Position numbers and translations under genes: made by a program. Positions 45,760-53,179 of a stretch of DNA of 64,000 bases are shown here, piece by piece (the first letter of the stretch is position 1; each line of letters starts with the position of its first letter). This DNA comes from Pseudomonadota bacterium (GTDB taxonomy: Bacteria > Pseudomonadota > Gammaproteobacteria > Burkholderiales > Usitatibacteraceae), in assembly GCA_029781595.1 (NCBI GenBank), contig JAKOWJ010000227.1, positions 1-64,000 of the forward strand, read 5' to 3'. The notes under the pieces were generated by a model that was not told where the DNA came from, made no database searches, and worked only from the letters and a program-made list of their open reading frames with translations.

Positions 45760-47334
45760 GTGTCCACCCTGACCTCCAGCCCAGCCTGGCAAGCCCTCGA
45801 GGCGCACCGCGACGCGATCGCGGCGACCCGCGTCGATTCGCTCTTCGCGCAGGACCCCGGGCGCGGCCCCGCGCTCACCGTGGCCTGCGCGGGCCTCACG
45901 GTGGACCTGTCCAAGCAGCGCCTGACCGGGGAGACGCTGCGCCTGCTGGTGGCCCTGGCGCGCGAGCGCGACGTGCCGGGCGCGGTGGAGCGGCTCTTCA
46001 CGGGCCAGCCGGTCAACAACACCGAGGGACGCGCGGCCCTGCACACGGCGCTGCGCGGCGACGAGCGCGTGACGGCCGGCGGCGAGGACGTGCTCGCGCA
46101 CGTGCAGCGCTGCCGCGAGCGCATGCGCAGCTTCGCCACCGCGGTGCGCGACGGCTCCTGGAAGGGCGCCACGGGCCAGCCCGTGCGCCACGTGCTGGCG
46201 CTGGGCATCGGCGGCTCCTACCTGGGCCCGAAGCTCGCCGTCGAGGCGCTCGCCCCCCTGGCGGACGGGCCGCCCGTGCGGTTCGTGGCCAACGTGGACC
46301 CGGCGGCGCTCGACGACGCGCTGGCCGGCCTGGACCCGGCCACCACCCTCGTGGTGGTGGCCTCCAAGACCTTCACCACGCAGGAGACCCTGGCCAACGC
46401 CCTGGCCGCGCGCGACTGGATCGTCGCGGCGCTCGGCGAGGAGGCCGTCGCCCGCCACTTCGTGGCCGCCACCGCCCGCGCCGGGGAGGCCGAGCGCTTC
46501 GGCATCCCGGCCTGCAACGTCTTCCCGTTCGCCGACTGGGTGGGCGGGCGCTTCTCGGTGTGGTCCAGCGTCGGGCTGCCGGTGGCGATCGCCCTGGGCA
46601 TGCCGGCCTTCGAGCGCTTCCTGGCCGGGGCGCACGCGGTGGACCTCGAGTTCCGCTCGGCGCCGCCGGAGCGCAACGCGCCGCTCCTGGTGGCGCTGGC
46701 GGGCCTGTGGAACCGCGACTTCCTGGGCCTCGCCGTGCACGCGGTGCTGCCGTACGCGCAGCGCCTGTCGAGCCTGCCCGGCTACCTGCAGCAGCTCGAG
46801 ATGGAGTCGCTGGGCAAGGCCGTCGCGGCCGACGGCGCCGCGGTGGGCGTGCCCACCTGCCCCGCGCTCTTCGGCGAGGCCGGCACGCTGGGCCAGCACG
46901 CCTTCTACCAGTGGCTGCACCAGGGCGCCGACGGCGCGGCCTGCGACTTCGTGGTGGTGGCGCGCGCCATGGGCTCGCGCGAGGCCGCGCACGAGGCGCT
47001 GCTCGCCAACGCGCTCGCGCAGTCCGAGGCGCTCATGACGGGGCGCTCGACGGGCGACCCCCACCGCGACTGCCCCGGCGACCGGCCCAGCACCACCATC
47101 GTGCTGCCGGCGCTCGAGCCCGCGGCCCTGGGCGCGCTGGTGGCCCTGTACGAGCACAAGGTCTACGCGCAGGCCGTCCTGTGGGGCCTCAACGCCTTCG
47201 ACCAGTTCGGGGTGGAGCTCGGCAAGGCGATCGCCGGCCGCATCCTGCCGGCGTTCGCCGGCGACGACGCCGCGCTGCACCCGGCCACCCGGCACCTGCT
47301 CGGCCTGCTGCGCCGCGCCGGCCCCTCGCGCTGA
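45760..47334 (+). CDS. pgi: Glucose-6-phosphate isomerase
   Basis: 524 aa; VLALGIGGSYLGPKLAVEAL, GRFSVWSSVGLPVAIALG, LPGYLQQLEMESLGK, NAFDQFGVELGK. Confidence 0.98.
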   Translation: MSTLTSSPAWQALEAHRDAIAATRVDSLFAQDPGRGPALTVACAGLTVDLSKQRLTGETLRLLVALARERDVPGAVERLFTGQPVNNTEGRAALHTALRGDERVTAGGEDVLAHVQRCRERMRSFATAVRDGSWKGATGQPVRHVLALGIGGSYLGPKLAVEALAPLADGPPVRFVANVDPAALDDALAGLDPATTLVVVASKTFTTQETLANALAARDWIVAALGEEAVARHFVAATARAGEAERFGIPACNVFPFADWVGGRFSVWSSVGLPVAIALGMPAFERFLAGAHAVDLEFRSAPPERNAPLLVALAGLWNRDFLGLAVHAVLPYAQRLSSLPGYLQQLEMESLGKAVAADGAAVGVPTCPALFGEAGTLGQHAFYQWLHQGADGAACDFVVVARAMGSREAAHEALLANALAQSEALMTGRSTGDPHRDCPGDRPSTTIVLPALEPAALGALVALYEHKVYAQAVLWGLNAFDQFGVELGKAIAGRILPAFAGDDAALHPATRHLLGLLRRAGPSR

Positions 47335-47354: not shown

Positions 47355-49604
47355 ATGGCCACCGAGGACTTCAAGCGCGTCGTCGAGACCCTTCGCACCG
47401 CGATCGCGATCGCCGATCCGAAGGGCGTCGTCGCCTTCGCCAACCCCGCCTTCGTGCAGCTCTCCGGCGACCCGGACCACGGCGTCTGCGGCGAGCCGCT
47501 CGCCTCGCTGTTCCACCGCGACGACGCGCGCCGCGTCACGCAGGCCGTGTCGCGCATCGCCGAGGGCAAGACGGCCTCCGCGATCCTGGACGTTCGCGTG
47601 GCCGCCGGCGGCGACTGGGCGCAGCTCGCGCTGCAGCCGGCCCTGGACGCGCGCGACCAGCCCGCCGGCATCGTGGCCGTGCTGCACGATGTCGCCGGGC
47701 AGCGCGAGACGGAGGACGCGCTGAACCTCTCCACCGCGCGCCTGCTCGCGCTGGTGGAGGACTCGCCCAGCGCCAAGCTCATCGAGAACGCCGACGGCGA
47801 GGTGGAGCTGGTGAACGACGCCTTCTGCCGGCTGCTGGGCCTGGAGAGCGCGCCGCAGTCGCTGCTGGGGCTGCCCGCCGTCGAGGTGATCGGCCGCTCG
47901 AAGGCGGTGGACGCCGCCGCCCTCGCCGGCGCGCACCGCCGGCCGGACGCGCCGGCGAGCATCCCCCTCGCGCGCGCCGACGGGGTGCCCGCCACGCTCG
48001 AGCGCCAGCCGCTGCTGGTGGACGAGTCGCCCGCCGGCGCGCTGTGGTCCTCGCACGCCGAGACCGGGGCGCCCGCGCCGGCCGAGCGCGGCGCCTCCGA
48101 GATCGCGCTCATCGAGAAGATCGGCGCCGAGCTCTCCGTGGCGCTCGAGGGCCTGGCGGCCATCTCGATCCGCGCGCAGCAGATGGAGTTCGACCCGGCG
48201 CTGGTCGAGCACTTCGTGGACATCCGCGCCGCCACGGAGACGGCGCTGGGCGCCATCGGCGACCTGGTGGACTTCTCCAAGGTCGAGGGCGGCATCGAGC
48301 TCGCGCGCGCGGAGTTCCGGCTGCGCCCGGCGGTGGCGGAGCTCGTCAGGCGCGTGGTGGCACGCGCCGAGGAGACGGGCTGCCGCCTGCGCGTGAAGGT
48401 GGAGCAGGACGTGCCCGACTGCCTCGAGGGCGACGTCGAGCGCCTGCGCCTGCTGCTGAGGAACCTCCTGGAGAGCGCCTTCGCCGTGTACCCGGGCGCG
48501 GAGGCGACCCTCGCCATCTCGCCGGAGTACCAGACCTCCTCGGGCATCCAGCTCTCCTTCGCGGTGTCCGTGGCCGCCGGCCCCGACAAGGGCGCGCCGC
48601 GCGCCTCGGTGGAGGCGGGCATGGGCGTGGCCGTCGCGCGCTTCATGGTGGGCGCCATGGGCGGGCGCCTCGCGGTGGGCACGCGGCCGGGCGATGCGCT
48701 GTACGCCTTCACGATCGAGTTCCCGGTGCGCCCCGCGCCGCCCGCGCCGCACCGCCCGTCCTACGTCTCGCTGGTGGCCATGCCCGTGCTCGTGGTGAGC
48801 GAGGACTCGGCGCAGCGCCTGGCGCTCGCCAACGTGCTGCGCGGCTGGCGCATGACGCCCATCGAGGCGGACAACGCGGCCATGGCGCTCGCGCTGCTCG
48901 AGCGCCTGCACGGCGAGGGCAGCCCCGTGCCGCTGATGCTCGTGTCCAACCGCATGGCGCACCAGGACGGGTTCCTGCTCGCCTTCCGCGTGAAGAACCA
49001 CCCGGACCTCGCCTCGACGCTGATCATGATGCTCGCCACCGACGGGCGGCCCGGCGACGCCATCGCCTGCCGCGAGAACGGCATCAGCGCGTACCTGCGG
49101 TACCCGCTCGCCGACAAGCAGCTCAACGACGCCATCGTGGCCGTCACCGGCGCCTCGGTGGATGCCGACGAGACGCCCACCCTGGTCACCCGCCACTCGC
49201 TGCGCGAGCAGCGCAAGGGCGCCACCATCCTGCTGGTGGACCCGCACCGCGACAGCCACATGCTGGCCGCGCACATCCTGAGGAAGCGCGACTCCAGCCT
49301 GGTGGTGGCCGCGGACCTCGCCGAGGCCATCGCCTCGCTGGAGCAGGACCTCTACGACCTCGTCTTCGTGGACGTGACGGTGGAGGGCCTGGAGGGGCCG
49401 GGCGCCCCCGCGCTGCTGCGCGGGCACGTCAAGCGCGACGTGCAGGCCACGCGCTTCTACGCCACCAGCGTGGACCACTCGCCCGAGTGGCGCGCCGCGC
49501 GCCTGGCCGAGGGCTTCGACGGCACGCTTGCCAAGCCCTTCCGCCGCGACAACCTCTTCGCCATCCTCGCCGAGATCGGGCGCCTGCCGGATCCGCAGGA
49601 GTAG
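47355..49604 (+). CDS. Hybrid histidine kinase-like protein with two PAS domains, degenerate kinase core and two receiver domains
   Basis: ATG at 47355; PAS-like segments; GMGVAVARFMVGAMGGRLAV (G2-like); receivers at about 48780 (VLVVSEDSAQ...LMLVSNRM) and about 49222 (ILLVDPHRDS...LVFVDVTVEG...LAKPF). Confidence 0.88.
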   Translation: MATEDFKRVVETLRTAIAIADPKGVVAFANPAFVQLSGDPDHGVCGEPLASLFHRDDARRVTQAVSRIAEGKTASAILDVRVAAGGDWAQLALQPALDARDQPAGIVAVLHDVAGQRETEDALNLSTARLLALVEDSPSAKLIENADGEVELVNDAFCRLLGLESAPQSLLGLPAVEVIGRSKAVDAAALAGAHRRPDAPASIPLARADGVPATLERQPLLVDESPAGALWSSHAETGAPAPAERGASEIALIEKIGAELSVALEGLAAISIRAQQMEFDPALVEHFVDIRAATETALGAIGDLVDFSKVEGGIELARAEFRLRPAVAELVRRVVARAEETGCRLRVKVEQDVPDCLEGDVERLRLLLRNLLESAFAVYPGAEATLAISPEYQTSSGIQLSFAVSVAAGPDKGAPRASVEAGMGVAVARFMVGAMGGRLAVGTRPGDALYAFTIEFPVRPAPPAPHRPSYVSLVAMPVLVVSEDSAQRLALANVLRGWRMTPIEADNAAMALALLERLHGEGSPVPLMLVSNRMAHQDGFLLAFRVKNHPDLASTLIMMLATDGRPGDAIACRENGISAYLRYPLADKQLNDAIVAVTGASVDADETPTLVTRHSLREQRKGATILLVDPHRDSHMLAAHILRKRDSSLVVAADLAEAIASLEQDLYDLVFVDVTVEGLEGPGAPALLRGHVKRDVQATRFYATSVDHSPEWRAARLAEGFDGTLAKPFRRDNLFAILAEIGRLPDPQE

Positions 49605-49646: not shown

Positions 49647-50312
49647 ATGCGACTGCTGCTCGTCGAGGACGACGCGATGATCGGCGCCGCGGCCCGCGAC
49701 GGGCTGCGGGAGGACGGCTTCGCCGTCGACTGGGTGCGCGACGGGCGCGAGGCGCAGGCCGCCCTCGCGCCGGGCGTGCACGAGATGGTGCTGCTGGACC
49801 TCGGGCTGCCCGGCCGCGACGGCCTCGCCATCCTGCGCGGCCTGCGCGCCCGCGGCGACGCGACGCCCGTCATCATCCTCACGGCGCGCGACGCGGTCGC
49901 GGACCGGGTCGCGGGCCTGGACGCCGGCGCCGACGACTACCTGGTCAAGCCCTTCGACCTCGACGAGCTGGCCGCGCGCATCCGCGCGCTGCGTCGGCGC
50001 CACGCGGGACGCGCGCGCGCCGCGGTGCGGATCGGCCCGCTCACGATGGACCCGGCCACGCGCGAGGTCGCCTGGCACGGGCGCCGCGTGCAGCTCTCGG
50101 GGCGCGAGTACGCGCTGCTCGCCGCGCTCGCGGACCGCCCCGGCGCCATCCTCTCGCGCGCCCAGCTCGAGGAGCGCATCTACGGCTGGGACGAGGAGGT
50201 CGGCAGCAACGCGGTGGAGGTCTTCGTGCACGGGCTGCGCCGCAAGCTCGACCCCGGCTTCATCCGCAACGTGCGCGGCCTGGGCTACACCCTCTCGCCC
50301 GACGCCGGCTGA
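49647..50312 (+). CDS. OmpR/PhoB-family response regulator (QseB/TctD-like)
   Basis: 221 aa; MRLLLVEDDAMIGAAARDGLRE...VLLDLGLPGRDGL...DYLVKPFDLDEL...winged-helix C-terminus. Confidence 0.96.
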   Translation: MRLLLVEDDAMIGAAARDGLREDGFAVDWVRDGREAQAALAPGVHEMVLLDLGLPGRDGLAILRGLRARGDATPVIILTARDAVADRVAGLDAGADDYLVKPFDLDELAARIRALRRRHAGRARAAVRIGPLTMDPATREVAWHGRRVQLSGREYALLAALADRPGAILSRAQLEERIYGWDEEVGSNAVEVFVHGLRRKLDPGFIRNVRGLGYTLSPDAG

Positions 50313-51643
50313 TGTCGCTGCGCCGGCGCCTGCTCTTCTGGCTGCTCACGAGCGTGCTCGCCGGGGGCCTGCTCGCCTCGTCGGTGGTCTTCTTCCAGGC
50401 CCTGGGCGAGACCAACGCCATCTTCGACTACCAGCTGCGCCAGCTCGCGCTCTCGCTGCGCGACCGCCAGTTCAGCCGCGCGGCCGTGGTCGAGGCGCTG
50501 CAGGGCGAGGATGTGCCGGACCTCGCCATCCAGGCCTGGGCGCCCGACGGCACGCTGCTCTACGACTCCGCGCCCGGCGCGGGCCTGCCTTCCGTGGTGC
50601 GGCTGGGGCTCTCCACGCTCTCGACGCCCCGGGGCGCGTGGCGGCTGTACGCCACGCAGCTTCGCGGCCTCACGATCCAGGTGGCGCAGCCGACTGCCGT
50701 GCGCGACCGCCTCGCCGCGCAGGCGGCCGGGCGCACGCTCCTGCCCTTCCTCGTGGCCCTGCCGCTCATGGGCCTGCTCATCTGGCGGCTGGTGGGCCGC
50801 GAGCTCGCCCCGCTCGAGCGCACGGCCGAGGCGGTGGCGCGCCGCAGCCCGGCCTCGCTGGAGCCCATCCCGGCGGGAGACGCGCCCGAGGAGATGCGCG
50901 GGCTCATCGACTCGCTCAACACGCTGCTCGGGCGCCTGGATGCCGCGCTCGAGAGCCAGCGCCGCTTCGTGGCCGACGCCGCGCACGAGCTGAGGAGCCC
51001 GCTCACCGCCCTGTCGCTGCAGCTGCAGCTCGCCACGCGCGCGCGCACCGAGGAGAAGCGGGCGCAGGCGCACGAGTCGCTGCGCCAGGGCGTGGAGCGC
51101 GCCACGCGCCTGGTCGAGCAGCTCCTCGCCCTCGCGCGCCAGTCGCCCGACGCGCCGGCCGAGCCGCTGGCGCCGGTGGACCTCGCCGCGCTCGCGCGCG
51201 GGGCCGTGGAGCACCACGCGGCCGCGGCGGCGGCCAAGGGCCTGGACCTCGCGTGCGTCGGCGCGGGTCCCCTCGCCATCCAGGGCGAGCGCGGGGCGCT
51301 GGCGGTGCTGGCCGACAACCTCGTGGGCAACGCCGTGCGCTACACGCCCGCCGAGGGGCGCGTGCGCGTGTCCACCGGCGCGGACGCCGGCACGGCGTTC
51401 CTCACCGTGGCCGACGACGGCCCCGGCATCCCGCCCGGGGAGCGCGAGCGCGTCTTCCACCGCTTCTACCGCGGCGCGGACGCGGGCGGCCCCGGCAGCG
51501 GGCTGGGCCTCGCCATCGTGAAGGAGGTGGCGGACCGCCACGGCGCCACCGTCACCCTCTCGGACGGCCTGGGCGGCCGCGGGCTGCGCGTGCGCGTCGC
51601 CTTCCCGCCCGCCGCGGCGCGCGCGGCCTTAAGTCCCGCCTAA
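50312..51643 (+). CDS. Sensor histidine kinase (QseC/TctE-like)
   Basis: ATG at 50312 overlapping RR stop (TGATG); RRFVADAAHELRSPLTALSLQLQLA, NLVGNAVRYTP, VADDGPGIPPGE, GSGLGLAIVKEVADRHG. Confidence 0.96.
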   Translation: MSLRRRLLFWLLTSVLAGGLLASSVVFFQALGETNAIFDYQLRQLALSLRDRQFSRAAVVEALQGEDVPDLAIQAWAPDGTLLYDSAPGAGLPSVVRLGLSTLSTPRGAWRLYATQLRGLTIQVAQPTAVRDRLAAQAAGRTLLPFLVALPLMGLLIWRLVGRELAPLERTAEAVARRSPASLEPIPAGDAPEEMRGLIDSLNTLLGRLDAALESQRRFVADAAHELRSPLTALSLQLQLATRARTEEKRAQAHESLRQGVERATRLVEQLLALARQSPDAPAEPLAPVDLAALARGAVEHHAAAAAAKGLDLACVGAGPLAIQGERGALAVLADNLVGNAVRYTPAEGRVRVSTGADAGTAFLTVADDGPGIPPGERERVFHRFYRGADAGGPGSGLGLAIVKEVADRHGATVTLSDGLGGRGLRVRVAFPPAAARAALSPA

Positions 51644-51709
51644 GCGCCGCGCGCGACAGTTCTCCCGTCCGGCGCCGATTCCCGGCGCCCCGCAGACAGG
51701 AGAACCCGA

Positions 51710-53179
51710 ATGAAGCTCAAGATCCTCATCGCGTGCCTGGCCATCGCCGGCCTCGCCTCCACGGGCGTCGTCGCCTGGCGCGACCACGCCGCCCTCGCCC
51801 AGGCCGCCGAGCCGGTGCACACCGCCATGACGGCGCCGGCCGCGCCGGCCGCCGCGACGCCCGTCCCGAAGCTCGAGCTCACCGACTTCAGCGCGCTGGT
51901 GAAGCGGTACGGGCCCGCGGTGGTGAACATCAGCGTGACCTCGAACGTGAAGGCGTCCTTCGGCGGCGTGCCCGGCTTCGGCGGCGGCGACCGCAACGAT
52001 CCCTTCTTCGAGTTCTTCCGCGGCTTCCGCATCCCGCAGGACGCCGTGCCGGCGCCGGTGCGCGGCCAGGGCTCGGGATTCATCGTCTCGAGCGACGGCT
52101 ACATCCTCACCAACACGCACGTGGTGGACAACGCCTCGGAGGTCACCGTCAAGCTCACCGACCGGCGCGAGTTCAAGGCGAAGGTGGTGGGCGCCGACAA
52201 GCAGAGCGACGTGGCGCTCATCAAGATCGACGCGAAGGACCTGCCGACGGTGCGGCTGGGCAACTCGCACGACACGCACGTGGGCGAGTGGGTCGTGGCC
52301 ATCGGCGCGCCCTACGGATTCGAGAACACCGTGACCGCGGGCATCGTGAGCGCCAAGTCGCGCTCGCTGCCGGACGGCTCCTACGTGCCGTTCATCCAGA
52401 CCGACGCGGCGGTGAACCCCGGCAACTCGGGCGGGCCGCTCTTCAACCTGGCCGGCGAGGTGATCGGCATCAACTCGCAGATCTACAGCCGCACCGGCGG
52501 CTTCCAGGGCCTGTCCTTCGCGGTGCCCATCGAGATCGCCCTGAAGGTGAAGGACGACCTGCAGGCGCACGGCAAGGTCACGCGCGGGCGCCTCGGGGTG
52601 ACGATCCAGGAGGTGAACGCGGCCCTCGCCGACTCCTTCGGGCTGGACCGGCCGCACGGCGCGCTGGTCTCGGACGTGGAGAAGGGCGGGCCGGCCGACC
52701 GCGCGGGACTGAAGGCCGGCGACGTGATCCTCAAGATGGACGGCAAGCCCGTCGAGCGCTCCATCGACCTGCCGGTCATGGTGGCCAACGCGAAGCCGGG
52801 CACCGAGACGACGCTCGACGTCTGGCGCAAGGGCGACGACCGCACGATGAAGGTGACCCTGGGCGAGCGCGTCGACGCCAAGGTGGCCTCCAGCGACGGT
52901 GCCGCGCCCGGCACCGGCCGCCTGGGCCTCGCCGTGCGCCCGCTCACCTCCGACGAGAAGCGCGAGACGGGCGAGCACGCCGGCGTCGTGGTCGAGGACG
53001 CCTCCGGCCCGGCCGCCCGCGCCGGCATCCAGCCCGGCGACATCATCGTGTCGCTCAACGGGCTTCCCGTGACCAACCCCGGCCAGCTGCGCGAGCTCGC
53101 GGCGAAGGGGGGCAAGCGCCTCGCGCTCCTGGTGGAACGCGACGGCGGCAAGCTCTTCGTCCCCGTGGACATCGGCTAG
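51710..53179 (+). CDS. Do family serine endopeptidase (DegP/MucD-type) with two PDZ domains
   Basis: 489 aa; GSGFIVSSDGYILTNTHVV, SDVALIKID, QTDAAVNPGNSGGPLFNL, two PDZ domains. Confidence 0.97.
   Translation: MKLKILIACLAIAGLASTGVVAWRDHAALAQAAEPVHTAMTAPAAPAAATPVPKLELTDFSALVKRYGPAVVNISVTSNVKASFGGVPGFGGGDRNDPFFEFFRGFRIPQDAVPAPVRGQGSGFIVSSDGYILTNTHVVDNASEVTVKLTDRREFKAKVVGADKQSDVALIKIDAKDLPTVRLGNSHDTHVGEWVVAIGAPYGFENTVTAGIVSAKSRSLPDGSYVPFIQTDAAVNPGNSGGPLFNLAGEVIGINSQIYSRTGGFQGLSFAVPIEIALKVKDDLQAHGKVTRGRLGVTIQEVNAALADSFGLDRPHGALVSDVEKGGPADRAGLKAGDVILKMDGKPVERSIDLPVMVANAKPGTETTLDVWRKGDDRTMKVTLGERVDAKVASSDGAAPGTGRLGLAVRPLTSDEKRETGEHAGVVVEDASGPAARAGIQPGDIIVSLNGLPVTNPGQLRELAAKGGKRLALLVERDGGKLFVPVDIG

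Follow-up and report, generated by a model that had tools for sequence, protein, structure and literature searches.

A pgi-associated pseudo-hybrid histidine kinase with degenerate catalytic motifs and a well-conserved first receiver domain

Introduction

RetS of Pseudomonas resides in the membrane and carries a periplasmic sensor. It has a hybrid-kinase body (6dk8) that binds another kinase, as in the RetS-GacS complex (7n0e). DivL of Caulobacter combines PAS domains with a DHp-CA fold, lacks the phospho-His, binds ATP poorly and works by binding (PMC4211667). The ChrS pseudokinase heterodimer (PMC9491836) and protein-protein regulation by pseudo-receivers (PsR; PMC12632262) are further precedents for action through binding. 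ShkA of Caulobacter (6qrj) shows the domain order PAS-DHp-CA-pseudoREC1-REC2, retains autokinase activity as well as a working REC2, and is activated by c-di-GMP, which binds to its REC1 (PMC7010744).

Pseudo-histidine kinases and pseudo-receivers are common, and their mechanisms are largely unknown. The His residue is missing in 0.9% of HisKA domains and the Asp residue in 2% of receivers, and the mechanisms of PsR have been called 'a mystery' (PMC12632262). In true receivers, both DD1 and DD2 are always acidic (100%), while about 80% of pseudo-receivers lose DD2 (PMC12632262). It is established that receivers usually signal their output through the alpha4-beta5-alpha5 face (see also PMC12632262).

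Here, a 64,000-nucleotide DNA stretch from a member of the Usitatibacteraceae (the window) was analyzed computationally. An earlier note had read the product of one of its genes as a PAS-pseudokinase scaffold in which the first receiver is dead and only the second is active. The scaffold and the dead first receiver are supported by a family-wide alignment, and the evidence leans towards a lineage-specific pseudo-hybrid kinase of single origin that is kept as a soluble sensing and docking protein acting by binding.

Results and Discussion

Domain layout and loss of catalytic residues

The open reading frame at 47355-49604 (+) comprises 749 codons without a stop. Antisense or alternative-frame coding was rejected: the minus strand is also open, but as high G+C predicts, and the homology lies in the plus frame. 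Pfam assigned two PAS and two receiver domains to the window protein, left HATPase_c as a sub-threshold trace (E 0.11) and gave no HisKA match; among 20 family members, HATPase_c was matched weakly in 10. The curated NCBIfam kinases BarA, TorS and ArcB matched far below their cut-offs, which indicates hybrid-kinase descent without membership in those families. No membrane segment was predicted by inspection. The gene and its parts are as follows:

47355-49604, + strand: pseudo-hybrid histidine kinase, 749 aa, PAS-PAS-pseudoDHp-pseudoCA-pseudoREC1-REC2 (ORF, Pfam, alignment, model)
47364-47705, + strand: PAS1, residues 4-117 (PF00989; model)
47730-48068, + strand: PAS2, about residues 126-238 (second PAS stretch by Pfam; model)
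48099-48290, + strand: pseudo-DHp, residues 249-312, with A258 at the phospho-His site (48126-48128) (alignment; helices 246-276 and 281-302 in the model; HisKA match in 0/20 members)
48291-48737, + strand: pseudo-CA domain, residues 313-461, with S374 for the N-box Asn and V406 for the G1 Asp (alignment; Foldseek matches to GacS, RetS and DHp-CA structures)
48570-48617, + strand: place where the ATP lid is deleted, residues 406-421, with 14 residues versus 30 in canonical kinases (alignment)
48786-49154, + strand: pseudo-REC1, residues 478-600, with S482 (DD1), S531 (Asp), A561 (Thr) and Y583 (Lys) (alignment, domain identities)
49041-49154, + strand: REC1 alpha4-beta5-alpha5 segment, residues 563-600, candidate docking face (69% identity between genera)
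49155-49220, + strand: REC1-REC2 linker, residues 601-622, ending in DETPTLVTRHSLREQRKG (100% identity among same-genus copies, 57% between genera)
49221-49574, + strand: REC2, residues 623-740, with D629, D673 and K727 present and P630 at DD2 (PF00072; alignment)

Family members were aligned to seven canonical hybrid kinases, and counts refer to the members spanning each region. In the window protein, A258, S374, Ala and V406 stand in place of the phospho-His, N-box Asn, N-box Lys and G1 Asp, respectively. This agrees with the earlier note, which had seen no phospho-His, a degenerate N-box and an unrecognisable D-x-G-x-G box, and all strings quoted there (EKIGAELSVALEGLAAISIRAQQ, RLLLRNLLESAFAVYP, VAAGPDKGAP, GMGVAVARFMVGAMGG, LMLVSNRM, RYPL, FVDVT and AKPF) are present in the open reading frame. 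Since the segment from the D-box to G2 has 14 residues, compared with 30 in 7/7 canonical kinases, the ATP lid is deleted; the segment has 10-15 residues in every family member covering it. ATP lid and G1 are absent from 22/22 members covering the region, whereas H, N, G1 and lid are kept in 7/7 canonical kinases. The F box and the G1 Asp are likewise absent from all members covering them, and the G2 glycines are retained in groups g1 and g4 only.

The phospho-His column holds Ala, Glu, Arg, Gln or Met in 20/22 members. The two others, L015 and L019 (both of group g2), have His exactly at this column, although their ATP lid is deleted; this His may be a chance reversal or may have a phosphotransfer role. 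Given the variability of the column, the position is unconstrained. In group g4, i.e., the second genus (L008-L011), the N-box Asn is kept (NLLDNAFQLVP) in three of four copies; thus, the N-box was lost later than the G1 box and the lid, or independently. The losses are not due to chance or sequencing error, since they are found again in independently sequenced genomes whose copies are 77-81% identical within the genus and 34-61% identical in other genera. Orthologues with canonical motifs, named beforehand as the finding that would speak against a pseudokinase, did not turn up, and the orthologues carry the same losses. From what is known of these protein families, neither autophosphorylation nor relay via DHp or REC1 would be expected.

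Predicted fold and described relatives

An AlphaFold2 model built on a 20-sequence alignment reached a pLDDT of 78.6 and a pTM of 0.48: the single domains are good, and their relative placement is unsure. Both PAS and both receiver domains are folded in the model, along with a pair of DHp helices and an alpha/beta CA domain, and the predicted fold is still hybrid-kinase-like. Foldseek searches against the PDB returned NifL, ShkA, phytochromes, GacS, PleD and RetS with low whole-chain TM-scores, as expected of flexible multi-domain chains, and the sequence profile matched GacS, RetS, ShkA and DivL.

Like DivL, the protein has PAS domains and a DHp-CA part without phospho-His, and the family profile matches DivL (4q20), with sequence similarity at the general level of the kinase fold only. 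Unlike DivL, which has no receivers and keeps its ATP lid (PMC4211667), it has two receivers and a deleted lid. It fits the DivL-like class of pseudo-histidine kinases in having a kinase fold without catalytic residues that is conserved as such; the two receivers and the occurrence in a Betaproteobacterial lineage only do not fit an orthologue of DivL, which belongs to the CckA/DivK network of Alphaproteobacteria and has PAS-DHp-CA without receivers. RetS is among the best sequence and fold matches; the pseudokinase differs from it in its pair of PAS domains and in the absence of a predicted membrane segment. The nearest full-length relatives are canonical PAS-HK-REC-REC-HPt kinases of Burkholderiales (e.g., L087-L089), in which the REC1-REC2 linker likewise ends in LITRHSLRE; these differ in their intact catalytic residues, their C-terminal HPt and their scores to the family profile (254-282 bits versus at least 983).

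Conservation of the two receivers

In REC1, DD1 is Ser and Thr is Ala in 22/22 members, the Asp position holds Ser, Ala, Thr or Pro, and the Lys position holds Tyr, His, Gln or Asp. The catalytic loss described in the earlier note thus holds for all 22 copies, but REC1 is more than a dead domain, being the best conserved one. Between groups g1/g4 and g2, the pseudokinases are 34% identical in DHp, 36% in CA, 58% in REC1 and 30% in REC2, with 69% over the alpha4-beta5-alpha5 segment of REC1. For six canonical hybrid kinases, mean identities were 72% (DHp), 51% (CA), 40% (REC1) and 54% (REC2); these are mixed paralogues and absolute identities are unmatched for divergence, so that the domain order within each set is the point of comparison. 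This order is reversed in the pseudokinases, with the dead REC1 conserved best and REC2 least. Constraint is strongest in REC1 and in the linker between REC1 and REC2.

Most likely, the protein is a DivL/RetS-like pseudokinase whose REC1 binds another protein as its means of signalling. High conservation of REC1 would equally fit the binding of a small molecule. REC1 could form a pocket for a nucleotide or a pgi-linked sugar phosphate, in the way that REC1 of ShkA binds c-di-GMP (PMC7010744), and ShkA, with its shared domain order, was the second-best PDB fold match. However, ShkA is an active kinase regulated by its REC1, whereas the pseudokinase has no activity to regulate, and its linker, which reads DADETPTLVTRHSLRE, shows no clear DDR motif of the ShkA type. 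Such a pocket is considered rather doubtful.

REC2 retains more of its active site: DD1 is kept in 22/23 members, Asp in 22/23 (Glu in L010) and Lys in 23/23. This is what would be expected if REC2 still accepted phosphate from another kinase acting in trans, with the pseudokinase body only positioning or reading it, as the earlier note had supposed. D673 and K727 are retained, as seen in that note. A single active receiver is not supported, since the metal-binding DD2, the second acidic residue, is Pro, Ala or Ser in 23/23 members, and by the criteria of PMC12632262 REC2 would be classed as a pseudo-receiver too. In addition, the Thr/Ser position is Glu, Glu, Gly or Asn in four g2 members, REC2 is the least conserved domain and the neighboring kinase is not conserved beside the gene. 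A phosphoacceptor role for REC2 thus appears improbable.

Genomic context

Three neighbors of the pseudokinase gene were considered:

45760-47334, + strand: pgi, glucose-6-phosphate isomerase, 20 nt 5' of the pseudokinase start (PF00342, E=3e-164; adjacency kept across genera)
49647-50312, + strand: intact OmpR-type response regulator (QseB/PmrA-like), neighbor only (NCBIfam/Pfam; not conserved with the pseudokinase)
50312-51643, + strand: QseC-like sensor kinase with intact HisKA and HATPase_c, neighbor only (NCBIfam/Pfam)

At 15/15 of the examined loci that have native pgi, this gene immediately precedes the pseudokinase gene on the same strand, with a gap of -4 to +29 nt at 14/15; these values depend on the start codons chosen among candidates. 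The gap measures 20 nt in the window and 5-22 nt over the window's genus and the one nearest to it. In g2, it is -4 nt at four loci and 12, 29 and 127 nt at the others. The four 4-nt overlaps suggest that pgi and the pseudokinase gene may be translationally coupled. Other neighbors change: upstream of pgi, an EamA transporter gene, or DNA ligase genes or urocanate hydratase are found depending on the group, and the genes downstream of the pseudokinase vary everywhere. A literature search for operons that combine pgi and a histidine kinase gene found no paper, and the literature found on Usitatibacter was ecological, or taxonomic in passing, only. RetS is not known to adjoin pgi.

There are exceptions to the association with pgi. 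G009 and G019 keep the pseudokinase, and the only pgi found in them (L090 and L091, respectively) lies at another place, away from the pseudokinase gene, and is 46-47% identical to that of the window; it may have been taken up from a foreign source as a replacement. No pgi was detected in G025. In G006 (same genus, 98% complete), pgi (L086, 9164-10735, - strand) is not followed by the pseudokinase gene, a natural loss.

The downstream pair, to which a link had been suggested, adjoins the gene at four loci only (window, L034, L038 and L040); the conserved neighbor is upstream pgi. The pair is absent from L035, L036, L037, L039 and the g2 loci, and no other genus checked has it adjoining, L040 excepted. 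A functional unit with the QseBC-like pair was rejected as a conserved context on account of this patchiness. In the window, the pair is followed by a DegP/HtrA-type protease with Trypsin_2 and two PDZ domains (the set spanning 49647-53179); the regulator-kinase-protease set recurs in L034 and L040 and is missing from several other same-genus loci.

If the pseudokinase acted on glucose-6-phosphate isomerase itself, as its partner or regulator, the two genes would be kept coupled, as is seen at the 15 native-pgi loci while other neighbors change. However, pseudokinases persist in G009 and G019 beside only a non-adjacent, divergent pgi, G006 keeps pgi without a pseudokinase, and operon membership alone can mean co-expression. 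An action on the isomerase is thus quite unlikely.

Distribution, origin and selection

In a search of 61 related genomes, the genomes of the window's family each gave a single strong match, and by profile search an orthologue was present in 24/28 family genomes, including 12/13 of the well-assembled ones. Identity was 77-81% within the genus, 56-61% in a second genus and 34-39% in two further genera. The records bearing orthologues include Betaproteobacteria MAGs (FeB_7, TGS_PRO46 and others) and the complete genomes GR16-43 and UKL13-2. Outside the family, the best match among 250 genomes of the order scored 282 bits versus at least 983 for full-length members; the four non-family kinases at 254-282 bits came from G177, G093, G242 and G139, and on reading those of G177, G242 and G139 had canonical motifs. 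Among 274 genomes of the class there were no relatives at E 1e-70, and a wider scan of genome contigs returned further family members plus three weak unrelated matches and nothing else. The order and class sets were samples, and the number of candidates taken up at first look was limited, so that confinement of the gene to the family is likely, not proven.

In a tree with canonical kinases, the pseudokinases formed one clade with a support of 100/100. Whole-gene dN/dS was 0.10-0.34 for pairs with estimable dS, and the purifying selection shows that the gene is not decaying. Although many catalytic residues are lost and G006 lacks the gene, a functionless, decaying pseudogene is very improbable and was rejected on dN/dS and retention, since the frame is open in every complete copy, the gene is kept across at least four genera at identities down to 34%, and REC1 is more conserved than in canonical kinases.

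Proposed mode of action and significance

For the binding pseudokinase favored here, the following scheme may be proposed. A PAS-HK-REC-REC ancestor would once have lost ATP binding and phosphotransfer, giving rise to the pseudo-hybrid kinase. The PAS pair would sense a cytosolic signal, and the DHp helices would have kept their ability to dimerise, or would pair with those of an active kinase. As DivL and RetS act by binding, so the alpha4-beta5-alpha5 face of REC1 may bind and gate a partner, which could be a response regulator or a hybrid kinase that is active. Co-expression with pgi would tie the amount of pseudokinase to the supply of sugar-phosphate enzymes. By analogy with the described systems, PAS sensing and action through REC1 docking are proposed with moderate confidence. 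Two observations run counter to this: nearly all members keep Asp and Lys of REC2, residues for which a pure scaffold would have no use, and L015 and L019 have His at the phospho-His column, albeit without an ATP lid.

A more far-reaching version can be put forward only tentatively, namely a fully non-catalytic hybrid kinase with the dead receiver as its working part: a pgi-coupled sensor that docks its pseudo-REC1 on a partner kinase or regulator and reports the cytosolic, possibly sugar-phosphate, state without phosphate transfer within the protein. If true, this would be a signalling design without phosphate transfer at any step inside the protein. Both kinds of loss occur in one protein and are fixed across a bacterial family, in which evolution marks the dead receiver as the part that matters. 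With a comparison set provided by nature and a candidate interface of small size, the role of the pseudo-receiver can be tested directly, and the association with pgi suggests a connection with central carbon metabolism.
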